Below, piece by piece: positions 13,785 to 42,575 of a stretch of 64,000 bases of DNA. A model generated the notes under the pieces. That model was not told the DNA's origin and did not search any database. It worked only from the letters and a program-made list of their open reading frames with translations. Numbering within the stretch: the first letter of the stretch is position 1; each line of letters opens with the position of its first letter. Source of the DNA: Kangiella sp. TOML190 (GTDB taxonomy: Bacteria; Pseudomonadota; Gammaproteobacteria; Enterobacterales; Kangiellaceae). The DNA lies in contig NZ_BQYL01000001.1 of the NCBI RefSeq assembly GCF_023706045.1, forward strand, positions 1,612,001 to 1,676,000, written 5' to 3'. Both the position numbers and the translations under genes were made by a program.

Positions 13785-14506
13785 TGCCTGAGACCAGTTC
13801 TTCTAATCCTCAGTCTGCTGAGCAACGAATATGGGCGCTACTGCCAGCGGCCGGAATTGGTTCAAGAATGCAGTCTGAGCTGCCGAAACAATACCTTGAA
13901 ATTGGCGATAAAACCATTTTAGAGCATAGTTTAAGTAATTTTCTTAAACACCCTGCGATATATAAAGTGGTAGTAGCTATTAACCCTAATGATCAACATT
14001 GGCCTCAACTCGAAGTCTCTAGTCACCCAAAAATGGTAACAGTAGAAGGTGGTGCTGAGCGTGCCGACTCGGTAGCAAACGGTTTGGCTGCCATTCGGCA
14101 AATGGGTGGTGAAGATGATTGGGTAATGGTGCACGATGCTGCTCGGCCTTGTCTCTATTCTTTGCATATTGATAACTTGATTATGGCCAGAGATACTTCA
14201 CCCGATGGTGTTATTTTAGCAATTCCATCGTTTGATACAGTTAAAGTTACCAATAATCAGCAGACCATTGATAAGACTATAAACCGCGAAAAAATTTGGC
14301 TCGCGCAAACGCCGCAGTTTTTTCCCGTCGCTAAATTAGCTAAAGCAATTCAAGATACAAAGCAACAGCAACAAAGGATTACTGACGAAGCTTCAGCGAT
14401 GGAAGCACAAGGCTATCATCCAGCGTTAGTGGTTGGTTCAAAAAGGAATATCAAAATTACTGAGCAAGAAGATTTGATCTTGGCATCAATTTCTTTGAGT
14501 ATTTAA
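13784..14506 (+). CDS. ispD: 2-C-methyl-D-erythritol 4-phosphate cytidylyltransferase
   Basis: 240 aa. It transfers CMP to MEP in the non-mevalonate isoprenoid pathway. The nucleotide-binding loop LPAAGIGSRM (about 16-25) with PKQYLEI, then VHDAARP and the C-terminal TDEASAMEAQG are all family motifs. Its usual partner ispF is not adjacent: the his operon (14549-21741) separates them, and ispF appears at 21760. Confidence 0.97.
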   Translation: MPETSSSNPQSAEQRIWALLPAAGIGSRMQSELPKQYLEIGDKTILEHSLSNFLKHPAIYKVVVAINPNDQHWPQLEVSSHPKMVTVEGGAERADSVANGLAAIRQMGGEDDWVMVHDAARPCLYSLHIDNLIMARDTSPDGVILAIPSFDTVKVTNNQQTIDKTINREKIWLAQTPQFFPVAKLAKAIQDTKQQQQRITDEASAMEAQGYHPALVVGSKRNIKITEQEDLILASISLSI

Positions 14507-14513
14507 AAAAGTC

Positions 14514-14542
14514 TTGCAAAAGATATTAACATCAGTTTTAAT
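14514..14542 (+). promoter_or_regulatory. Candidate his operon promoter
   Basis: TTGCAA (14514-14519) and TTTAAT (14537-14542) are separated by 17 nt and match the sigma70 boxes at about 4/6 and 5/6. Transcription would begin around 14549, essentially at the first leader ATG, implying a leaderless or nearly leaderless leader ORF. A more distal promoter within ispD is therefore possible. Confidence 0.3.
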
Positions 14543-14548
14543 CGAGCC

Positions 14549-14623
14549 ATGAATAAGATTTATTTGCAAAATCGCACTCATCACCATCATCCGAGTTTGA
14601 TGGCGGTGTCTTATTGTGTATAA
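14549..14623 (+). CDS. hisL: his operon leader peptide 1 (four consecutive His codons)
   Basis: A 24-codon ORF too short for routine gene calling. Codons 8-14 read N-R-T-H-H-H-H, followed by P; the four His codons are at 14579-14590. The His run followed by proline resembles the enterobacterial HisL peptide. It lies 30 nt before a strong intrinsic terminator and upstream of hisG, so ribosome stalling on the His codons should set which RNA helix forms. The Shine-Dalgarno is poor (GAG only two bases before the ATG), so either translation is leaderless or the peptide begins further in, for example at TTG 14564. Confidence 0.85.
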   Translation: MNKIYLQNRTHHHHPSLMAVSYCV

Positions 14624-14663
14624 AAAATAAATCGTTTTATATAAGAATACATAAAGCCCCGCC
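14602..14663 (+). promoter_or_regulatory. Candidate antiterminator helix of his attenuator 1
   Basis: By hand pairing, 14602-14614 (ggcggtgtcttat) can pair with 14651-14663 (ataaagccccgcc), giving 11 base pairs interrupted by two single mismatches. The 3' strand is the left arm of terminator 1, so the helices are mutually exclusive, as attenuation requires. The 5' strand lies in the leader ORF just after the His codons. Confidence 0.6.
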
Positions 14664-14682
14664 AACCAGCGGGGCTTTTTTT
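14653..14682 (+). terminator. Intrinsic terminator of his attenuator 1
   Basis: A perfect 10-bp stem, aaagccccgc (14653-14662) with gcggggcttt (14669-14678), has a six-base loop and runs into seven T residues (14676-14682). It lies between leader peptide 1 and leader peptide 2, so readthrough leads to a second control module rather than directly to hisG. Confidence 0.9.
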
Positions 14683-14705
14683 ATGGTTAATTTAGAGTTA
14701 AATCA

Positions 14706-14771
14706 ATGAGTTATTTATTTTCAGTACATCATCATCAAATACTGGGTAAGCGACGGTGGGATCGGTTGTAA
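14706..14771 (+). CDS. his operon leader peptide 2 (three consecutive His codons)
   Basis: A second short ORF of 21 codons beginning ATG AGT TAT. Codons 8-10 are His-His-His (14727-14735), followed by Gln, and the C-terminus is basic (K-R-R-W-D-R-L). It follows terminator 1 by 23 nt and precedes terminator 2, so it mirrors the first module. A weak AGAG (14694-14697) lies about eight bases before the ATG. A His triplet in a short ORF directly before a terminator and hisG is unlikely to be chance, but translation is not proven. Confidence 0.7.
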   Translation: MSYLFSVHHHQILGKRRWDRL

Positions 14772-14798
14772 CTGATAAATGCTTGATAAACCCCGTTG
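14751..14798 (+). promoter_or_regulatory. Candidate antiterminator helix of his attenuator 2
   Basis: 14751-14759 (cgacggtgg) can pair with 14791-14798 (ccccgttg), giving eight pairs with one bulged T and one G-U. The 3' strand is part of the left arm of terminator 2, so the two structures compete. This pairing is weaker than in module 1 and was found by eye. Confidence 0.45.
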
Positions 14799-14822
14799 CT
14801 CCGAAAGGTCAACGGGGTTTTT
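14788..14822 (+). terminator. Intrinsic terminator of his attenuator 2
   Basis: Arms aaaccccgttg (14788-14798) and caacggggttt (14810-14820) form a perfect 11-bp stem with an 11-nt loop and run into a T-rich tail (14818-14822, then atttat). It ends 36 nt before the hisG ATG. Confidence 0.88.
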
Positions 14823-14857
14823 ATTTATAGGTTTTAAATTAATATTTGGAGTAGAAA

Positions 14858-15706
14858 ATGACACTAAAAATGGTGATCCCTAAAGGCAAGCTATACGATA
14901 AAGTTGCTGAATTGCTTTCTGATATCGGTTTGTCTTTGGTAGGGGACAGCCGAAATTATAGGCCTACTTTGTACGGCTGTGATATCGAAGTAAAACTTCT
15001 AAAAAGTCAGAATATTCCTGAACTGGTCGCTTTGGGTCAGCATGATATTGGCTTCGCTGGACTAGATTGGATAGAAGAAAATAATGCGGATGTTGAAGTT
15101 TTAGAAAATCTTAACTTTAATCCAGTGCAAGTTGTTGCCTGCATTCCAGAGAATTGGGATTTTAAATCGGTGATGCAAAAAGAAATTATTGTAGCTTCGG
15201 AATATAACAGGATAGCCAAAAACTACCTTGATTCCCTTCAAGTTAAATATAAGTTGCTAAGAGCTTATGGCGCTACTGAGGTTTTTCCGCCGGAAGATGC
15301 CGATATGGTGATTGATAATACTTCTACTGGTTCAACCATTAGAGCCAACCGGCTAAAGGTAGTAGGCACAGTATTACAAAGCTCTACTCAGTTAATAGCT
15401 AATAAATCTGTGTTAAAAGATCCAAAAAAGCGTAAACAAATAGATGATTTGTTACTACTTATTCGAGCGGTATTAAATGGGCGCAAGCGAGTTTTATTGG
15501 AAATGAACTGTAATAAAAAAAATATAGAGCAGATCGTTGAGTTGCTACCTGCTATGCGCGCCCCAACGGTTAGTGAGCTATATAAATCTGACGGGTTTGC
15601 AATAAAAGCAGCAGTAGAAAAGCGATTAATTAAGGACTTATTGCCAGAGCTGATTGCCGCTGGTGCTACTGATATTTTGGAAACCCCTATTAGGAAAGTG
15701 TTATGA
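14858..15706 (+). CDS. hisG: ATP phosphoribosyltransferase HisG, long form
   Basis: 282 aa. It catalyses the first, feedback-inhibited step of histidine synthesis, ATP + PRPP to phosphoribosyl-ATP. The periplasmic-binding-like catalytic domain begins with MVIPKGKLYDKV and includes the PRPP loop D-N-T-S-T-G-S-T (about 151-158). The last ~70 residues match the C-terminal regulatory domain (PAMRAPTVSELY...GATDILETPIRK), so no HisZ is needed. GGAG lies seven bases before the ATG. The stop overlaps the next start as ATGA. It is the first structural gene after the double attenuator. Confidence 0.95.
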   Translation: MTLKMVIPKGKLYDKVAELLSDIGLSLVGDSRNYRPTLYGCDIEVKLLKSQNIPELVALGQHDIGFAGLDWIEENNADVEVLENLNFNPVQVVACIPENWDFKSVMQKEIIVASEYNRIAKNYLDSLQVKYKLLRAYGATEVFPPEDADMVIDNTSTGSTIRANRLKVVGTVLQSSTQLIANKSVLKDPKKRKQIDDLLLLIRAVLNGRKRVLLEMNCNKKNIEQIVELLPAMRAPTVSELYKSDGFAIKAAVEKRLIKDLLPELIAAGATDILETPIRKVL

Positions 15707-17373
15707 ATATTACCTATAAAAATACACTTAAGCTTGATTTTAACGAACGCTCAGATAATCCGCCTGCATGGCTAGATCCTATCACTATAGCTAACAGTAC
15801 ATTATGGTCTTATCCAGACAAATCTTTATTAGAAAAGATCATCTGCCAGCAGTTGGTAATTGATAAGGAGCAATTACTGATCACCAATGGCGGCGATGAA
15901 GCAATTGAGTTGCTATTTAAATCAGCCAAAATCAACAGTTCCGATGTTATTTTACCATTACCAGCTTTTAGCCAATATATACAGGCTGAAACAAGTTGGC
16001 GACTTAGGCTTAATAAAGTGGATTCTAACGACGATTTAACTATCAATATTGACGCTACTCGTCGTTGTATCAAGAAAGCCAAATCTGGTGACATAGTTAT
16101 TATAACTAGTCCTAATAACCCAACTGGCGAAACACTTTCATTGCAAGTGATAAAGCAGTTATGCGCGGATGCTAAACAAGCTGGTGTCATAGTTTTTCTT
16201 GACCAAGCTTATATTGAATTTACAGAGCAAGCGCAGCAAAGCTTAGAGCTAATTGATGAGTTTAATAATTTAATTGTATTAAGAACTCTTTCCAAAGCCT
16301 ATGGTTTAGCGGCAATTCGTATAGGTTATATGCTTGGCAATAAGCAACTTATTAGCAATTTTAAAAACATAGCATTACCTTTTAATAATTCGCAGCCTAG
16401 CATCGATCTGGCAAAGATAGCTTTTACTAAAAAAGCTCAGCTAGAAATTATTAGTTATAGGAAAGTGATTGCTGCTAATAGGAAAACAATTACCAACTAT
16501 CTACAACAAAAGCAATTGCAGCTGGTAGAGAGTGAGGCCAATTTTATCCTGATAACGGGAAATACTCTTAAACTTCGATTGATCAAGGCCGCTTGTGCTA
16601 AAAATAACATTGACATCAAAACTGGGCTGATAGGTCTGTCAATAAACCAGCAATTGGATGCTATCAGGATAAGTATTCCCCATAACATTGAGCGGTTGAC
16701 ACTGGCATTAAAAATTGCACTAGAACCCATGCTTGTTTGTTTCGATATGGATGGTGTATTGATTAATACGCAGAAAAGTTATGATCAATCAACAATTGAA
16801 ACAGTTGCATTTTTTACCGGCCAGCGAATTTCAAATGATGAGATTAAGCAACTAAGAAACTCAGCGGGTTTTAATAATGATTGGAAGTTGACAAGGCAAC
16901 TCATTAAACGTCGTGGAATGAAAGTATCTCTTGAAGAAGTGATCAATAAGTTTCAGGAGTATTATCAGGGGACGAAAAAAACAACTGGTTTTAAGCTAAA
17001 TGAAATCCCTCTAATAGAAGATCGCAATAGGCAAAAGTTTTTTATTCAAAAAAGTCGGACACTAAAAACGGCTGTGGTTACAGGGCGGCCGCTTGCAGAG
17101 GCAAAGCAAGGTTTAGAACTGTTAGGGATTAAAAATACGCTTCTGATTAGCGATGATGATGTTATTAATTCTAAACCAGATCCTGAAGGTGTGATTAAAG
17201 CGAAACAGTACTATAAAGCCGATTCTTGTTGGCTGATCGGTGATTCAGCCGATGATATGTTAGCTGCATGTAAAGCGGGCGCGATAGCTATAGGAATTGG
17301 CGATAAAGGTTTAATGGACTTTGGTGCTGATCTAGTTTTAGAAAGTGTTAACCAATTGGGAGAGCTACTATGA
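15703..17373 (+). CDS. hisC: Histidinol-phosphate aminotransferase fused to a HAD phosphatase domain
   Basis: 556 aa, about 200 longer than ordinary HisC. Residues ~1-343 are a PLP-dependent class I/II aminotransferase with TSPNNPTGE and the Schiff-base lysine K198 in TLSKAYGLA. Residues ~344-556 form a HAD hydrolase: motif I D348-x-D350 (CFDMDGVL), motif II VVTGRP, motif III lysine in SKPDP, motif IV GDSADDM. The downstream hisB lacks the phosphatase domain and no hisN/PHP phosphatase lies in the operon. The likely reading is that one chain transaminates imidazole-acetol-P and then dephosphorylates histidinol-P. The phosphatase assignment is inference from motifs and context. Start and stop overlap hisG and hisB by ATGA. 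Confidence 0.88.
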   Translation: MNITYKNTLKLDFNERSDNPPAWLDPITIANSTLWSYPDKSLLEKIICQQLVIDKEQLLITNGGDEAIELLFKSAKINSSDVILPLPAFSQYIQAETSWRLRLNKVDSNDDLTINIDATRRCIKKAKSGDIVIITSPNNPTGETLSLQVIKQLCADAKQAGVIVFLDQAYIEFTEQAQQSLELIDEFNNLIVLRTLSKAYGLAAIRIGYMLGNKQLISNFKNIALPFNNSQPSIDLAKIAFTKKAQLEIISYRKVIAANRKTITNYLQQKQLQLVESEANFILITGNTLKLRLIKAACAKNNIDIKTGLIGLSINQQLDAIRISIPHNIERLTLALKIALEPMLVCFDMDGVLINTQKSYDQSTIETVAFFTGQRISNDEIKQLRNSAGFNNDWKLTRQLIKRRGMKVSLEEVINKFQEYYQGTKKTTGFKLNEIPLIEDRNRQKFFIQKSRTLKTAVVTGRPLAEAKQGLELLGIKNTLLISDDDVINSKPDPEGVIKAKQYYKADSCWLIGDSADDMLAACKAGAIAIGIGDKGLMDFGADLVLESVNQLGELL

Positions 17374-17954
17374 ATACCGATAAAGCTATTCAAATAGAAA
17401 GGCAAACCAAGGAAACCCAAATTGATATCCAGCTCAAAATTAGAGGCTCGCAGCAATTAAAAATTAATACGGGATTAGCGTTTTTTGACCATATGCTAAG
17501 TCAATTGGCATTGCATGCGGGTTGGGATTTGCGACTAAAGGCTAGCGGAGATTTAGAGGTGGATGATCACCATCTAATTGAAGATGTGGCAATTTGTTTA
17601 GGTCGAGCATTTAATCAAGCTTGGCGGCAACAAAGTAATATAAAGCGTTTTGGTCAAAGATTATTACCTATGGATGCAAGTTTAGTCATGGTAGCAGTAG
17701 ATGTTGCTGGGCGTAGTTATTGTGTCTGTGATCTTCCTTTTGATCGTGAAATGCTCGGGGGGATTGCTACCGAAATGTGGAAGCATTTTTTTTACAGTTT
17801 TGCGATTAATGCACACATTAGTTTGCATATTAAAACGGAATATTTCGACAATAATCATCACCTTATTGAAGCCTGCTTTAAAGGTTTGGCTTTTGCTCTT
17901 AGCGAGGCGCTAGAGAGCAATAATAAAGAAAACAGTTCTAAGGGAGTTTTGTGA
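17370..17954 (+). CDS. hisB: Imidazoleglycerol-phosphate dehydratase, monofunctional HisB
   Basis: 194 aa, only the IGPD domain. It dehydrates imidazole glycerol phosphate to imidazole acetol phosphate. The two manganese-binding repeats are present: DDHHLIED near residue 65 and NNHHLIEA near 162, plus FDHMLSQ. Many gammaproteobacterial HisB proteins carry an N-terminal histidinol-phosphatase domain; here it is absent, and a HAD domain sits instead on the C-terminus of the upstream HisC. It is coupled by 4-nt overlap to hisC and by a TGATG junction to hisH. Confidence 0.95.
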   Translation: MNTDKAIQIERQTKETQIDIQLKIRGSQQLKINTGLAFFDHMLSQLALHAGWDLRLKASGDLEVDDHHLIEDVAICLGRAFNQAWRQQSNIKRFGQRLLPMDASLVMVAVDVAGRSYCVCDLPFDREMLGGIATEMWKHFFYSFAINAHISLHIKTEYFDNNHHLIEACFKGLAFALSEALESNNKENSSKGVL

Positions 17955-18547
17955 TGACAAGCTCAAGAGTAGCTGTAGTTGATACAAAAGCAGGAAATCT
18001 ATTCAGTATTTTATCGGCATTAGAGCGAATTGGATTTACCCCAATATTAGTTGGCTCTGCTGATGATATACAAAAGGACACTGCAGTTTTTAATGCACTG
18101 GTGATTCCCGGTCAAGGTCGTTTTGGCGCTGTGATGAGAAGTTTGCGAACCAATGGCTTAGATAGTTTGATTAAGGACTGGTACTTATCTGGAAGAAAGT
18201 TATTAGGTATTTGCGTAGGAATGCAAATCTTTTTTGCAGAATCAGAGGAGGACATAGGGGTTTCAGGCTTAGGGCTTCTAGAAGGTCAGGTAAAAAGACT
18301 TCAGTTGCCAAAACGGCCTATGGTGGGCTGGTGTGAGTTAGATTCAAAGCAACTTTGGTTAGATAAGAAATGTGTTTATTTTGTTAATGGTTATGGAGTT
18401 TCAAAAACTGAAAGTGAAACTTCCAGAGTGGAGTATGGCGAAGGTTTTGTTGCCAGTATTCGCTCCAAAGGGCTTACCGCTTTTCAATTTCACCCTGAAA
18501 AGTCAGGCTCCGTCGGCGAGGAGATGTTAAGACAATGTTTAATTTAA
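17954..18547 (+). CDS. hisH: Imidazole glycerol phosphate synthase, glutaminase subunit
   Basis: About 197 aa, a class I glutamine amidotransferase that supplies ammonia to HisF. The nucleophile Cys is in GICVGMQ and the catalytic His-Glu in FQFHPEKSG near the C-terminus. GTG 17951 is an alternative start one codon earlier; GGAG at 17942-17945 favours the ATG at 17954. The coding end overlaps hisF by 13 nt, supporting coupled production of the two subunits of one enzyme. Confidence 0.94.
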   Translation: MTSSRVAVVDTKAGNLFSILSALERIGFTPILVGSADDIQKDTAVFNALVIPGQGRFGAVMRSLRTNGLDSLIKDWYLSGRKLLGICVGMQIFFAESEEDIGVSGLGLLEGQVKRLQLPKRPMVGWCELDSKQLWLDKKCVYFVNGYGVSKTESETSRVEYGEGFVASIRSKGLTAFQFHPEKSGSVGEEMLRQCLI

Positions 18548-19296
18548 AACCCAGAGTTATTGTCTGTCTTGATGTCGCTAACGGTAGGGTGGTCAAGGGT
18601 GTTAATTTTAAGCAGCTGGTTGATATGGGTGATCCGGTTGAGTTAGCAATGGATTATCAGCGACAGGGGGCTGATGAAATTGTTTTTTTAGATATTAAAG
18701 CCTCTGTTGAGAATCGCTCCACAGCATTAGATGTAGTAACAAAAGTCGCAAAGCACTTGTCGATTCCTTTTACCGTGGGCGGGGGATTAAATTCATTAGA
18801 AGATGTTTCCCAGTTTCTAATGGCTGGTGCTGATAAGGTGGCTTTAAATTCTGCTGCTGTGATTTCTCCTAGTTTAATTAATCAGATCAGCGATAACTTT
18901 GGAGCCCAATCCCTAGTGGTTGCGGTTGATATAAACAAAGAGCCGGATGGTTTAAAGGTTTATATCAAAGGTGGAAAGGAGAAAACGAGCCTGTCAGCGT
19001 TCAACTGGCTAAGAGAAGTCGAGCAACGCGGAGCGGGAGAAATACTTTTAACTGCAATGCATAAAGACGGAACCAGTTCTGGGTTTGATAATGAGTTGAT
19101 GAATCGAGTGACGCAAAATTCGACAGTACAAATTGTCGCATCAGGCGGTGCTTCAATACCAAAGCATTTTGTTGAAACCTTTAATGCGGGTAGCGATGCT
19201 GCTTTAGCTGCCGGAATGTTTCATCGAGGTGAATATACCATTCAACAAGTGAAATCTGAGTTAATAAACAATCAAATAGAGGTAAGAGAATGCTAA
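18535..19296 (+). CDS. hisF: Imidazole glycerol phosphate synthase, cyclase subunit
   Basis: 253 aa TIM barrel. It uses PRFAR and HisH-derived ammonia to make IGP and AICAR. Catalytic aspartates are visible in IVCLDV (D13) and VAVDI (about D130), with phosphate-binding GGG (TVGGGLNS) and ASGGAS loops. In most proteobacteria hisA lies between hisH and hisF; here hisF directly follows hisH and hisA comes next as a fusion, overlapping by 7 nt. Confidence 0.95.
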   Translation: MFNLKPRVIVCLDVANGRVVKGVNFKQLVDMGDPVELAMDYQRQGADEIVFLDIKASVENRSTALDVVTKVAKHLSIPFTVGGGLNSLEDVSQFLMAGADKVALNSAAVISPSLINQISDNFGAQSLVVAVDINKEPDGLKVYIKGGKEKTSLSAFNWLREVEQRGAGEILLTAMHKDGTSSGFDNELMNRVTQNSTVQIVASGGASIPKHFVETFNAGSDAALAAGMFHRGEYTIQQVKSELINNQIEVREC

Positions 19297-20528
19297 TTCC
19301 ATCAATCGATATCTTAGATGGCAAAGCCGTGCAGTTAGAGCAAGGTGACCCCAATAAAAAGATTGTTGAGAAAGATGATGTGTTCGAATTGTTAGAAGAA
19401 TACTCTGTCTATGGTGAGGTCGCTATTATCGATCTCAATGCAGCCTTAGGCTTGGGTGATAACAGAGCGCTAATCACACAAATGCTAAAAAAACAGCCGG
19501 CTAGAGTCGGTGGTGGTATTCGCAGTTATCAAGTGGCTAGAGAATACCTATCGGCAGGAGCAACGAAAATTATTATTGGTACTCGTTGCCGAGATGACTT
19601 TGTTAAAAAGTTACCAAAACAGCGATTAATATTTGCTATAGATGCTTTTGGTGACAATTGGGCTGTGAACGGATGGCAAGACAAAACTCATGAAAAAATC
19701 CTCGATATTATCCCTGAACTTGAAAAAGATTGTGGAGAGTTTCTATATACTCAAGTCAATAAGGAAGGCTTATTGCAGGGAATTGATAAGAAAAGAGTCA
19801 AATCGGTTATCAAAAAATCAGGAATAACTGTCACTATTGCTGGTGGCATTAGTTCTTACCACGATATCCAGTTTATCAACAAACTTGGTGCTAACAGCCA
19901 AATTGGGATGTCGCTGTATACTCAAAAAATCTCGTTAGCTGAGTCTGTTTTAGCATGCTTAGATTTTACTAAGTCGTCACTGATACCAACCATAGTTCAA
20001 GATCAAGATTCGGGTCAGATATTAATGTTGGCCTATTCCAGTCAAGAGTCTTTAAGCCTTGCTATGCGCGAAAAGAAAGGGGTGTACTTTAGTCGTTCAA
20101 GAAAGCAGCTGTGGGAAAAGGGTTCAACTAGTGGTAATTATCAAGAATTAGTCAATATTGATTATGATTGTGATGGCGATAGTTTAATTTTTAAAGTAAG
20201 GCAAAAAGGAGTAGCTTGTCATTTCGATAGGTATAGCTGTTTTGCTAGGCAAGAAAAACAGTTCTCACTCAACACACTTGACCAAGTGTTAAGTGAACGA
20301 CAAATGATACCCTCGGAGTCTTCCTATAGCAGTCAGCTATTTTCTGATACATCGCTACAAGTAGATAAGCTTAATGAAGAGTGTCAAGAACTTATCGAGG
20401 CTCAAGAGTTTGCTGATGTCCGCTGGGAAGCTGCTGATTTAATGTACTTTACATTGGTCTATGCTAAGTCTAGGGGTGTTTCTGCTGAGCAAATTATTCA
20501 AGAGTTGGGAGCACGTAATGCAAATTAG
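19290..20528 (+). CDS. hisA: Trifunctional HisA-HisI-HisE fusion
   Basis: 412 aa carrying three enzymes. Residues 1-~225 are HisA (ProFAR isomerase), a TIM barrel with D7 in SIDILDG and D118 in FAIDAF, and phosphate loops RVGGGIRS and IAGGISS. Residues ~228-335 are HisI (PR-AMP cyclohydrolase) with DYDCDGDSLIF and the zinc motif ACHFDRYSC. Residues ~345-412 are HisE (PR-ATP pyrophosphatase) with KLNEECQELIEA and WEAADLMYF. HisI-HisE fusion is common; adding HisA at the N-terminus is unusual and joins steps 2, 3 and 4 of the pathway. No internal stop or frameshift breaks the fusion. The end overlaps hisD by 11 nt. Confidence 0.92.
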   Translation: MLIPSIDILDGKAVQLEQGDPNKKIVEKDDVFELLEEYSVYGEVAIIDLNAALGLGDNRALITQMLKKQPARVGGGIRSYQVAREYLSAGATKIIIGTRCRDDFVKKLPKQRLIFAIDAFGDNWAVNGWQDKTHEKILDIIPELEKDCGEFLYTQVNKEGLLQGIDKKRVKSVIKKSGITVTIAGGISSYHDIQFINKLGANSQIGMSLYTQKISLAESVLACLDFTKSSLIPTIVQDQDSGQILMLAYSSQESLSLAMREKKGVYFSRSRKQLWEKGSTSGNYQELVNIDYDCDGDSLIFKVRQKGVACHFDRYSCFARQEKQFSLNTLDQVLSERQMIPSESSYSSQLFSDTSLQVDKLNEECQELIEAQEFADVRWEAADLMYFTLVYAKSRGVSAEQIIQELGARNAN

Positions 20529-21741
20529 AAAGCTTACAAGTTGCAATAGCCGGCGAGCTTCCAACCTAGTGGCTACGGCGGATATAACGGCACTGGTTGC
20601 TAAATTGATGGAAGAAATTGAATCTGGCGGCGATGATAAAATTATTGAGTTGAGCAGGCGCTTCGATGGTTTTGAGCCAAGATGGATAGGTTTGCGTCCT
20701 TTTAATGAGTATCGGTTAGAGCGGAGTTTGCGCGACTCGATCAGTGCTGCCGCTAACCGAATAGAATTTTTCTGCCAATTTCAAAAGGAGCAATATCAAG
20801 ACCGTTATTTTGAAGATGAAGTCGGCAGCTTTGGATATTGTTATAAACCGGTTAAACGTATCGGAGCCTATATTCCTGGCGGTCGGTATCCATTGATTTC
20901 TTCGGCATTGATGACACTAATTCCAGCTACTGTCGCCGGAGTAAGCCAGCGTATAGCCTGTTCGCCTTCAAAACATCCGGCTATATTAGCCGCCGCTAGC
21001 TTAGCCGGTGCAACTAGATTTCTACATATCGGAGGGGTGCAAGCCATTGCCGCTATGGGGCTGGGTTTTTGTGAAAGCGATCCTGTGGATATGCTAGTTG
21101 GGCCAGGCAATCAATATGTCAATGCGGCTAAGCAATATTTACAAGGCCGACTTGCGGTTGATACTGCGGCGGGGCCAAGCGAACTGTTGATATTGGCTGA
21201 AGACAGCACTCATGGTGAGTGGCTTATCGCTGATATGGCAGCACAAGCTGAGCATGATCCGCAAGCTATTAGCTTATTGGTCAGTGACAGTAAAGCTTTA
21301 TTAGACAAGGTGTTAGTAATGATTAAAAGGGATAAACACTTGTCTCATCTGTATAAAACGGAACAAATTAATTTATTACAAGCAACGGATATTGAGCAAA
21401 TGATAAAGTTTAGCGATGACTTTTCTCCTGAACATTTATTGTTAGCTGACTCGCGAATAAATCCAGATTTATTAAACCACTATGGAGCAATTTTTATTGG
21501 TGAAAACAGTGCAGTGGCTTATGGTGATTATTGTTCAGGGCCAAATCATACCTTACCCACTGCTGGAGCTGCACGCTATTCAAGTGGCTTAAGTGTGGCT
21601 AATTTTTTAAAGATTCAAACCCAACAGAAAGTGAGTGATGACGGCCGAACGCAACTTGCTCAAATCGCTGAAAATTTGGCTCAAGCAGAGCAATTAGTTT
21701 GGCATCAACGCAGTATGCAGGTAAGATCAAAAGCAAGTTGA
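20518..21741 (+). CDS. hisD: Histidinol dehydrogenase
   Basis: 407 aa from the ATG at 20518, which has GGGAG upstream; a longer reading from 20461 would add 19 residues without homology and is rejected. It oxidises histidinol to histidine in two NAD-dependent steps. Recognisable segments are YIPGGRYPL, VGPGNQYVN, the zinc/catalytic region SPEHLLL, and GPNHTLPTAGAARYSSGLS near the C-terminus. It is the last gene of the operon, whereas hisD usually follows hisG. Confidence 0.96.
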   Translation: MQIRKLTSCNSRRASNLVATADITALVAKLMEEIESGGDDKIIELSRRFDGFEPRWIGLRPFNEYRLERSLRDSISAAANRIEFFCQFQKEQYQDRYFEDEVGSFGYCYKPVKRIGAYIPGGRYPLISSALMTLIPATVAGVSQRIACSPSKHPAILAAASLAGATRFLHIGGVQAIAAMGLGFCESDPVDMLVGPGNQYVNAAKQYLQGRLAVDTAAGPSELLILAEDSTHGEWLIADMAAQAEHDPQAISLLVSDSKALLDKVLVMIKRDKHLSHLYKTEQINLLQATDIEQMIKFSDDFSPEHLLLADSRINPDLLNHYGAIFIGENSAVAYGDYCSGPNHTLPTAGAARYSSGLSVANFLKIQTQQKVSDDGRTQLAQIAENLAQAEQLVWHQRSMQVRSKAS

Positions 21742-39864: not shown

Positions 39865-40560
39865 ATGGTAAAAAGAATTGCTCTAGTCGAAGACGAACCC
39901 ATCTTACAGCAGAATTATAAGCTGGCGCTCGAAAAGTCAGGATACGAAGTGGCCGTTTATGCGGATAAAGGTGCTGCTTTAGCGGCTTTTAATCAGCGAT
40001 TACCGGAATTAGTGATTTTGGATATCGGTTTAGGCACTGAGCCAGAAGCGGGCTTTGAAGTTTGCCGTGAATTACGACAAAAATCTAAACATTTGCCAAT
40101 AATTTTTCTAACTGCTTTAGATAGCGACTTTGACATCATTTCAGGCCTGCGTTTGGGGGCGGACGATTACCTAACCAAAGACATTAGTATGCCGCATTTG
40201 TTAGCTCGGATCTCGGCGTTATTTCGGCGGATTGAATTGATGCAACAAGCCCCTGAGCAGGAAAATATCAAGACGGTTGGTTTACTGGAAATCGATAACG
40301 AACGTTTATCGGTGAAGTGGGATAAGCAATTGGTGGATTTAACCGTGACTGAATTTTGGATTGTATCCTCATTGGCGACTAAACCCGGTCATGTGAAAAG
40401 CCGTGACCAATTGATGCAAGCAGTTAAGGTGGTGGTAGACGACAGTACCATTACCTCACACATCAAAAGGATCCGTCAGAAATTCCAAGCTATTGATACA
40501 GCTTTCGATCATATCGATACGGTTTATGGTATGGGTTACCGCTGGAATAGTAGCGGATGA
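39865..40560 (+). CDS. pdsR: OmpR-type response regulator, dedicated-sortase-system type
   Basis: 231 aa. A receiver domain with the acidic pair EDE near residue 9, phosphoacceptor D53 and K of LTKD, then a winged-helix DNA-binding domain. The segment LPIIFLTALDSDFD...GLRLGADDYLTKDISMPHLLARI strongly recalls the proteobacterial dedicated sortase system regulators. It is coupled by ATGA overlap to its kinase. No sortase or LPxTG-type gene lies nearby. The family call rests on memory of motifs; a generic OmpR-type regulator is the alternative. Confidence 0.72.
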   Translation: MVKRIALVEDEPILQQNYKLALEKSGYEVAVYADKGAALAAFNQRLPELVILDIGLGTEPEAGFEVCRELRQKSKHLPIIFLTALDSDFDIISGLRLGADDYLTKDISMPHLLARISALFRRIELMQQAPEQENIKTVGLLEIDNERLSVKWDKQLVDLTVTEFWIVSSLATKPGHVKSRDQLMQAVKVVVDDSTITSHIKRIRQKFQAIDTAFDHIDTVYGMGYRWNSSG

Positions 40561-42575
40561 GCAATTGGTCTTTGACAGCCAAAATCCTTGTTCGGTTATT
40601 ATTGCTATTGGCTTTGTTGGCAATAATTGGCTGGGCTTACGCTTTTGGCCAAAAAACCATTGAACAGCAAACGTTGGAAGCTAATCGACAAGATTTAAAA
40701 TTTTATCGCAATATCTTCCAACAGCTATTGGAAAAAGATAAAAATTTTGTCGCAAACTTTAATCAAGAGCAACAACAAAACGCTATATTAATTCTGAATA
40801 GAACCACACCAATTTTGCTTGATGGTTATGGTGATGAGTGGTTTTCATATAAACAACAATCGTTAGCGGTTCGTAATGATAAAACACCCTCTAGTTTAAG
40901 TTTAATTGAAGATAAGCGATTTTTTTACGGCCTACTCGAAGTCACTGATAATCATCTGGTCTATCGGAAAAACCCTTACTCTAACCAATCCACTGATATG
41001 TTCCGGGTTGATTTTGGGCAAGGTTATTGGTTATTTCAACCTCAAGCACCTGGAAAGATGATGGTATTAAAAGAAAAAGATAATGGTTTTTCGCCAGTAG
41101 CCTCGGTGTTAGCAATATTGCAAGAAACTCAGGCCGGCTATCAAATTGAGTTTCGAGCACCAAAGGCTTTAATAGGCGATAGGCTTAATGCTGTGTTATA
41201 CGATGCCGATGATAAGACTTTAGCCAATTTTAACGAGCAATACCAAGGCATATTTTCGTTTACCAACTTTGAAAGCTATTCAATGTTGAGCGAAAACAAA
41301 TCCGATTGGCTATTAAGCAATGATTTAAGTGAGCAGCAATTGATATTAGCAGACGCTAGTGGTCAGCAAGTCTTTTCCGTGGGTAGCTTGTTTGAACAAA
41401 GAACTAATCGCAGAATGAGCAGCTTTAGCAGCAGCGATAAAGTGCAAGCACATATTAATAAACTTAAACAAACTGCTAGTTTTGAGCTAAATGATCCCAA
41501 TCGCGTTTATCAAGCAAGCGACAAGGCGGGCACGGAGTTTTTTATTGCCAATTCCGGCGTGGCATTAAAGCTCAACGAGCGGCTCCTTGGTTACTTGTTG
41601 GTGTGCGACTCAGCGTACTCCTATAAACGCTTATTGCACAATATAGTATTGATGATAGCGTTAGCTTTTATACTGCTATGGCTGTTAAGTAGTTTTATGG
41701 TGATGAAACAGTCTCGCATCTATAACCGCAGAATTAATCAGTTGCGCCAAGTTACAGAGGATGCTTATGAGCAAGATCTAGACAGCGTCGAAATCAATCA
41801 AGCCGAACTTAAGGGTAGTGATGAAGTTTCGCAACTCTATAATAGCCTGTATTACTTTAATGAACGCGCTGGTCAAAAGCGTGAACATCATAGGAAAATG
41901 GTTTCGCGCCTTAATCATGAACTCAGAACACCAATCGCCATCATTAGTTCTTCGCTGGACAATCTGGCGATGTCGAAGCTTTCTGCTGAAGACAAGGCCT
42001 TGCTAGCTAGCGCACAGCAAGGTAGCAAACGCTTGAGTTTAACTTTGAGTCGACTTAGTGAGGCTAACCGGCTTGAAGAGGCGGTAGCGCAAGTGTCAAT
42101 GCAGCAAACAGAGCTGGTTACTTTGCTAAAAAAGCTTATCCAAAGCTATCAACAAAGCTGGAGCGAGTACAAGTTTGAATTCGTTAGCAATGTAAACTCC
42201 GTCAAGATTAAAGCCAATCAGGAACTGTTTGCGCAAATGCTGGATAAAATTATTACTAATGCACTCGATTTTTCCGATAAAAAAGAACCAATAGTTTTAA
42301 GCTTGAATCAAAATAAGGATTTGCTGGTGCTATCAGTGAGCAATTCAGGCCCTACGATCATTCCTGAACAGTTGAAGTCCATTTTTAACTTAATGGTGTC
42401 CTATCGCGAGAATGCAAAAATACAGCCAAAGTCTGATAATTTAGGCTTGGGTTTATATATGGCAAAATTAATTGCCAGAAAGCACAAAGCTATTATTCAA
42501 GCTAGAAATCGCAAGAATCAGCAGGGCGTAGTGATTAATCTAAGCTGGACAAAAAGTTCTTATGTCGTTTCGTAG
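40557..42575 (+). CDS. pdsS: Sensor histidine kinase, dedicated-sortase-system type
   Basis: 672 aa. One membrane helix (about 10-30), a large periplasmic region (~30-360) containing L-D-G-Y-G-D-E-W typical of CBM9-like sensory domains, a second helix (~362-385), then HisKA with H454 in LNHELRTPIA and a HATPase. The ATPase G1 box reads S-N-S-G-P rather than D-x-G, and is followed by F-N-L-M-V-S-Y-R and NLGLGLYMAKLIA, matching my memory of the sortase-linked kinase family. It probably senses an envelope or glycan signal and phosphorylates the upstream regulator. Confidence 0.75.
   Translation: MSNWSLTAKILVRLLLLLALLAIIGWAYAFGQKTIEQQTLEANRQDLKFYRNIFQQLLEKDKNFVANFNQEQQQNAILILNRTTPILLDGYGDEWFSYKQQSLAVRNDKTPSSLSLIEDKRFFYGLLEVTDNHLVYRKNPYSNQSTDMFRVDFGQGYWLFQPQAPGKMMVLKEKDNGFSPVASVLAILQETQAGYQIEFRAPKALIGDRLNAVLYDADDKTLANFNEQYQGIFSFTNFESYSMLSENKSDWLLSNDLSEQQLILADASGQQVFSVGSLFEQRTNRRMSSFSSSDKVQAHINKLKQTASFELNDPNRVYQASDKAGTEFFIANSGVALKLNERLLGYLLVCDSAYSYKRLLHNIVLMIALAFILLWLLSSFMVMKQSRIYNRRINQLRQVTEDAYEQDLDSVEINQAELKGSDEVSQLYNSLYYFNERAGQKREHHRKMVSRLNHELRTPIAIISSSLDNLAMSKLSAEDKALLASAQQGSKRLSLTLSRLSEANRLEEAVAQVSMQQTELVTLLKKLIQSYQQSWSEYKFEFVSNVNSVKIKANQELFAQMLDKIITNALDFSDKKEPIVLSLNQNKDLLVLSVSNSGPTIIPEQLKSIFNLMVSYRENAKIQPKSDNLGLGLYMAKLIARKHKAIIQARNRKNQQGVVINLSWTKSSYVVS

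Follow-up and report, generated by a model that had tools for sequence, protein, structure and literature searches.

Two his-type attenuator modules precede hisG in Kangiella sp. TOML190 and probably act in series

The his leader of Kangiella sp. TOML190, a marine bacterium, carries two his-type attenuators upstream of hisG, each made of a His-codon ORF, an antiterminator arm, and an intrinsic terminator, within a span of 276 nt (Table 1). It lies in the window, which is the whole 64-kb stretch of DNA that was analyzed (G000:C1:1612001-1676000) and which belongs to a single-contig genome of 2.45 Mb. We consider it very likely that this leader consists of two complete ribosome-mediated transcription attenuators placed in series on one transcript. 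Computation gave the anatomy of the two modules, their conservation, a three-way covariation of their pairing arms, a promoter-like site that precedes module 1 alone, and a preference of the nascent RNA for the antiterminator with a ribosome positioned at the His codons.

Table 1: Features of the his leader and the his operon, in positions of the window.
Feature	Position	Strand	Details
Predicted sigma-70 promoter	14514-14542	+	TTGCAA (14514-14519), 17 nt, TTTAAT (14537-14542); score 8.0, best upstream of ORF1
ORF1, leader ORF	14549-14623	+	24 codons; four His codons 14579-14590; from sequence
Module 1 R2, antiterminator 5' arm	14600-14615	+	Pairs with module 1 R3
Module 1 R3	14650-14665	+	Alternative partners R2 (antiterminator) or R4 (terminator)
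Intrinsic terminator 1	14653-14682	+	Stem 14653-14678, T tail to 14682; -18.1 kcal/mol
ORF2, leader ORF	14706-14771	+	21 codons; three His codons 14727-14735; from sequence
Module 2 R2, antiterminator 5' arm	14742-14764	+	Core AGCGACGG 14749-14756; pairs with module 2 R3
Module 2 R3	14785-14805	+	Alternative partners R2 or R4
Intrinsic terminator 2	14788-14824	+	Stem 14788-14820, T tail; -19.5 kcal/mol
hisG, long form, HisG_C domain	14858-15706	+	Pfam PF01634 + PF08029
Remaining his operon	15703-21741	+	hisC::HAD fusion, hisB, hisH, hisF, hisA::hisIE fusion, hisD

A preliminary description of this DNA had proposed two complete modules before hisG, and the sequence bears this out. In every module the arm R3 can pair either with R2, which closely follows the His codons, or with R4 of the terminator. 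All the parts of module 1 were found, namely the leader ORF, a terminator stem of 10 pairs (7 G-C), and an antiterminator formed by R2 and R3 (-14.1 kcal/mol, shuffle p 0.035). The ORF and the terminator of module 2 were found as well, the latter by reading the leader, the simple pattern scan having caught terminator 1 only and having rated it terminator-like on the opposite strand too. The proposed antiterminator of module 2 also exists, but it cannot be called the weaker of the two, since it reached -18.9 kcal/mol (shuffle p 0.015). The first gene downstream of both attenuators is hisG, and the gene upstream of the leader is ispD, which ends 42 nt 5' of ORF1; this neighbor varies among relatives, being another gene of 331 aa in L016 and a divergently read gene in L019. 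Two genes of the operon are fusions, in which the aminotransferase gene hisC is joined to a HAD phosphatase domain (15703-17373) and hisA to hisIE (19290-20528); hisH was assigned from a glutamine amidotransferase match and its position in the operon.

To estimate how often such modules arise by chance, the 64-kb window was shuffled 60 times with its dinucleotides preserved and both strands were scanned, which yielded 2 modules of a His-run ORF followed by a terminator and hence a probability of about 4e-9 for two His modules within 350 nt on one strand. The real window, passed through the same filter, contained exactly two His modules, both in the his leader. A looser scan added a His-run ORF at 40887 on the minus strand, which was dismissed as a chance hit: it is antisense inside a plus strand gene (40557-42575) and is followed by a weak hairpin. 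A genome-wide preference for tandem attenuators was also rejected, none being found upstream of the ilvB-like gene, leuA, two trpE/pabB-like genes, the thrA-like gene, and lysC, six regions of the same genome. At leuA (L091) the match spans 1-382 of 494 with one TAA inside, and the gene may be short or truncated.

The curated leader model RF00514 misses the his leader of the window. Module 1 scored 30.7 bits, below the gathering score of 49, no match to module 2 was listed at E up to 5, and the search of the genome (G000) gave no match at E<=0.001. Neither His_leader nor T-box was among the Rfam matches in the window at the gathering threshold, and none of 52 matches found in region 14450-14900 with E up to 5 was a T-box. 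Across the order of the window, the Rfam His_leader model matched 225 of 295 genomes, with no adjacent pair among the matches listed.

To determine how far the two modules are conserved, we read 51 distinct leaders, drawn from 31 hisG loci of one search and from 61 genomes of another, of which 54 had a match; same-genome duplicates, loci L027 and L029-L031, all four very distant, and 18 order-level genomes with a HisG match only at E 1e-14 to 1e-28 were set aside. Two modules of His ORF and terminator were present in 19/19 leaders of the genus Kangiella and in 11/11 Marinicella-type leaders, terminator 2 of L021 having been missed by the scan and set by hand. The other 21 leaders, three of them from metagenome bins resembling Marinicella (L014, L015, and L028) and the rest from other Kangiellaceae and their near kin, had a single His module each. 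One of these, L062, has a degraded His run in which no ORF was called; its compact run is lost, and the terminator and the GACGGTG arm are kept. In all 30 tandem leaders, ORF1 carries 4-6 His codons and ORF2 3-6, the His run itself having served as the criterion for calling the ORFs. The ORF2 runs are composed of CAT or CAC (99/100 codons in Kangiella and 46/46 in the Marinicella type). The preliminary description had held that relatives with hisG but without a conserved second ORF or terminator would speak against a tandem pair; the comparison failed to refute it, as both ORFs, both terminators, and the antiterminator arms are kept in the tandem leaders. Upstream of eight single-module leaders (L012, L050, L051, L052, L056, L058, L059, and L067) we observed palindromes like TGTATATACA or TGTCTATACA, which resemble a HutC operator and may add protein control there.

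The covariance search for paired modules that had been suggested with the preliminary description found them in Kangiella and in some genomes of the Marinicella family, a distant relative. The covariance model of a single module (model R1) was built from 41 modules and was thus partly trained on genomes in which it finds pairs. Outside its training were the Kangiella leaders L004, L006, L007, L010, L037, L041, L042, L044, and L045 and the Marinicella-family genomes G779, G785, and G792. Among them, pairs were recovered for L004 (G012), L006 (G011), L010 (G015), L037 (G014), L041 (G019), L042 (G007), L044 (G005), and L045 (G010), the genome of L007 not being among the matches listed in the order-level survey, and in G779, G785, and G792, where all three were confirmed by reading the leaders. 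In the order of the window, 292/394 genomes matched model R1 at E<=0.01, and adjacent pairs were confined to the genus Kangiella, in all 18 of its genomes, among the matches listed, which leave aside weaker matches and 82 match-less genomes. At class level 8/369 genomes matched at E<=1e-4, with a pair only in the genome of the window itself. In the Marinicella family, 26 of 33 genomes matched at E<=1e-4 and 7 did not; the matches comprised 14 adjacent pairs, 11 single modules, all of them read individually, three among the 51 leaders and eight in addition, and one leader cut by a contig edge (G784). Finally, 27/299 genomes of the Marinicella order matched, with pairs confined to the same 14 family genomes. 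The large surveys used stricter filters and their figures hold among the matches listed, so that pairs that are weaker or of a different build may have escaped them.

The three arms R2, R3, and R4 covary within modules. At position +1 after the C-run-G, the triplet R2-R3-R4 reads G-C-G in 18/19 modules 1 of Kangiella, A-T-A (13/19) or A-T-G (5/19) in modules 2 of the same leaders, and A-T-A in 11/11 modules 1 of the Marinicella type. The antiterminator duplex was better than with shuffled R2 (p<0.05) in 26/30 first modules, 27/30 second modules, and 16/20 single modules. For each of the two modules, R3 paired better with the R2 of its own module than with that of the other in 24/30 leaders; the exceptions were six Kangiella modules 1, whose R3 pairs slightly better with the R2 of module 2, and six Marinicella-type modules 2, whose R3 pairs better with the R2 of module 1. 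Within genomes, R2 and R3 paired no or hardly any better than between genomes in Kangiella (module 1, -16.1 versus -16.8; module 2, -20.7 versus -20.2) and in module 1 of the Marinicella type (-15.5 versus -15.8), module 2 of the latter being the exception (-16.4 versus -12.6). A hairpin of the His codons with R2 (R1:R2), which could hold R2, beat its shuffles (p<0.05) in 15/19 leaders for each Kangiella module, in 4/11 and 1/11 for modules 1 and 2 of the Marinicella type, and in 12/20 single modules; in the window it reached p 0.015 in module 1 and, in module 2, was not better than shuffles (p 0.195). A coupling across modules, in which the 3' arm of terminator 1, once freed, would pair with terminator 2, was not supported, pairing within genomes being equal to that between genomes (Kangiella, -11.8 versus -11.8; Marinicella type, -15.2 versus -15.6).

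Promoters were scored with a sigma-70 consensus matrix. Upstream of ORF1, the mean score was 10.2 in Kangiella (shuffles 6.1), 9.6 in the Marinicella type (shuffles 5.6), and 7.6 in the single leaders, for which no shuffles were made; L001, at 5.2, fell below the shuffle mean. Between the modules, the means were 5.0 versus 5.4 for shuffles in Kangiella and 5.5 versus 5.1 in the Marinicella type, with moderate matches in L022 (8.2, its -10 box ending 7 nt 5' of the ORF2 ATG), L042 (7.9), and L017 (7.1) and a score of 5.7 in the window. As a promoter-like site precedes module 1 and the inter-module scores do not, on average, exceed those of shuffles, the two modules stand most likely in series. 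The -10 box ended 6-8 nt 5' of the in-frame ATG of ORF1 in 45/50 leaders scored (19/19 Kangiella, 10/11 Marinicella-type, the eleventh, L022, starting at a contig edge, and 16/20 single). Such a distance would place the transcription start on or directly beside the ATG, which makes ORF1 probably leaderless; the same appears to hold for the tandem leaders, which span two orders, and for the majority of the scored single ones. To our knowledge, descriptions of his leaders in Gammaproteobacteria do not usually call them leaderless. We had considered ORF2 as the Shine-Dalgarno- (SD-) led counterpart of a leaderless ORF1 and found no support for this as a general rule, the mean SD strength in the 30 tandem leaders being near the shuffle level (-1.9 versus -1.5; 11/30 better by 0.5). 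The SD of ORF2 is weak in Kangiella, an SD-like GAG in the window, and none is worth naming in 9/11 Marinicella-type leaders; in the remaining two the best candidate is a TTG that overlaps terminator 1 or directly follows it. In Kangiella, hisG has a good SD.

In full-length equilibrium folds of the leader of the window, the terminator formed whichever of the tested ribosome states was imposed, and the switch must therefore be kinetic. Equilibrium folding was accordingly dropped as a test of ribosome states, which only truncated nascent RNA discriminated. In the nascent-RNA folds the RNA was cut before R4, the ribosome was represented by a mask, and at least 5 expected antiterminator pairs were required. 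With the mask on the second His codon, this was reached in 60/60 modules. With the mask at the stop codon, it was reached in 3/19 modules 1 and 10/19 modules 2 of Kangiella, module 2 of the window included (5.8 expected pairs), and in 0/11 of the Marinicella type for each module. Release of antiterminator 2 at high histidine would thus need something else in those 10 Kangiella leaders. When no ribosome was present, at least 5 pairs were expected in 6/19 and 7/19 Kangiella modules 1 and 2 and in 10/11 and 6/11 of the Marinicella type, with 11.0 (module 1) and 12.6 (module 2) in the window, so that untranslated leaders, as far as this crude model goes, need not terminate.

The HisG tree comprised 46 rows, with the single leaders L062-L067 and some further genomes left aside. 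The 19 Kangiella rows formed one clade (97/90), and a Marinicella-type clade (99/100) united 11 tandem with 3 single rows, of which L014 was sister to the tandem L018 and L015 and L028 were nested inside. The two clades grouped with each other to the exclusion of the single-module Kangiellaceae rows (94/99, unstarred), on a tree whose root is uncertain owing to a very long outgroup branch. At least three changes between the one-module and the two-module state are needed, and loss of a module by deletion between the similar terminators would be a likely route. The C-terminal codons of module 2 are similar in both clades, being of the RR type as read from R2, a hint of a single origin.

The mechanism that we propose would work as follows. 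A ribosome waiting at the His codons would leave R2 free to pair with R3, the terminator R3:R4 would be blocked, and the polymerase would continue; a ribosome reading through would cover R2, or R2 would fold back on the His codons, and the terminator would form. Stalling and termination would thus be expected in each module, the transcript starting at a leaderless ORF1 and ribosomes initiating anew at ORF2. As hisG would be reached only past both terminators, the read-through probabilities of two independent gates would multiply, and two gates on charged tRNA-His would give tighter repression, with lower basal expression, and a steeper response. In a race model with a leak of 10 percent per gate, the range rose from 10 to 100 fold with two independent gates, and the maximal logarithmic gain was 4.40 for two gates versus 2.37 and 2.03 singly, all with illustrative parameters. 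Two gates for the same amino acid in series, if independent, would add their logarithmic gains and multiply their repression.

The two gates could also be unlike, ORF1 being read leaderless by whole ribosomes and ORF2 by SD-poor internal initiation, so that the leader would respond to histidine shortage AND initiation state, which would be more than a squared histidine response; we give this some chance, but a small one. We regard it as unlikely that only one module works, most likely module 1 with its clear promoter-like site, and that module 2 is the relic of a duplication or acts as a constitutive terminator that only lowers the flow into the operon. Such a state would fit an ORF2 without a good SD, the stop-codon mask that fails to block antiterminator 2 in more than half of the Kangiella leaders, and the single modules of the Marinicella family, beside (L014) or among (L015 and L028) tandem rows; indeed 11/33 genomes of this family manage with one module, which counts against two gates. 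A relic, however, would decay, and module 2 keeps its His codons in 30/30 leaders (with ORFs called by their His run), has its own covarying arms, and forms an antiterminator as significant as that of module 1 in two orders; in the Marinicella type its R2 and R3 even pair better within than between genomes.

The two remaining alternatives concern the boundaries of the leader. If module 2 had its own promoter, it would govern a second, shorter transcript and would not be in series with module 1. The moderate inter-module matches of L022, L042, and L017 point in this direction, but the mean inter-module scores equal those of shuffles in both clades and only 27-29 nt separate terminator 1 from ORF2 in the window, L001, L005, L006, and L045, and we find this very unlikely. 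Terminator 1 might instead be the mere end of ispD, leaving only module 2 to his, as the nearby end of that gene and the terminator-like opposite strand would allow. Module 1, however, possesses a His ORF, a promoter-like site, and an antiterminator arm of its own and precedes hisG also where the upstream gene differs (L016 and L019); in L019 that gene reads away from his, and no upstream gene ends at its terminator 1. This possibility is largely refuted and hardly credible. We therefore retain two attenuators in series as the best account of the leader, and since the operon occurs naturally with one gate and with two in one clade, the value of the second gate is directly testable.

Each module resembles the enterobacterial his attenuator (HisL, RF00514) in its His-codon leader ORF, its predicted R2:R3 and R3:R4 pairings, a candidate R1:R2 pairing, and its intrinsic terminator before hisG; the Kangiella leader differs in having two modules, most likely in series, and in an ORF1 that is probably leaderless, which suggests a leaderless his leader peptide. 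Vitreschak and colleagues reportedly made a comparative study of attenuation in proteobacteria (2004). Tandem T-boxes, as far as the parts of the literature available to us describe them, also sense an amino-acid signal twice in a single leader; T-boxes are tRNA-binding riboswitches and, unlike the Kangiella modules, have no leader peptide. The preliminary description knew of no described tandem pair of ribosome-stalling his attenuators, and no tandem his attenuator was found in the titles, abstract beginnings, and passages of the open-licence literature, the word "tandem" not occurring in the part of PMC1262725 at hand. For ribosome-dependent attenuators in general, tandem pairs have been described. 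From the accessible parts of the respective reports, the mgtCBR leader of Salmonella likewise has two ORF-dependent attenuators (mgtM and mgtP), which answer two different signals, ATP and proline, and whose stem-loops are, according to the authors, unlike intrinsic terminators (PMC3641672), whereas in Kangiella both modules have a run of His codons and end in an intrinsic terminator. Two leader-peptide attenuators answering the same signal, erythromycin, are described for the streptococcal mefA/msrD, in the sections available, with msrD behind both (PMC10314930); there the mefA gene lies between them and the arrest is drug-induced, whereas the Kangiella pair lies within a single leader ahead of the first gene and would answer amino-acid supply. 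The trpL attenuator of Sinorhizobium meliloti, in which the leader-ORF ATG is the very start of the transcript, shares the leaderless start but, in the portion seen, is a single Trp module (PMC7298713). In the rimP leader two terminators stand in tandem, the upstream one with a potential antiterminator, and the excerpt at hand describes no leader-peptide system (PMC2965389). The model of Elf and Ehrenberg, in the part available, ties the sensitivity of attenuation to a multi-step competition between ribosome and polymerase (PMC1183508). Compared with these systems, each Kangiella module is HisL-like, and what is new is the presence of two proposed gates for the same signal in one amino-acid leader.
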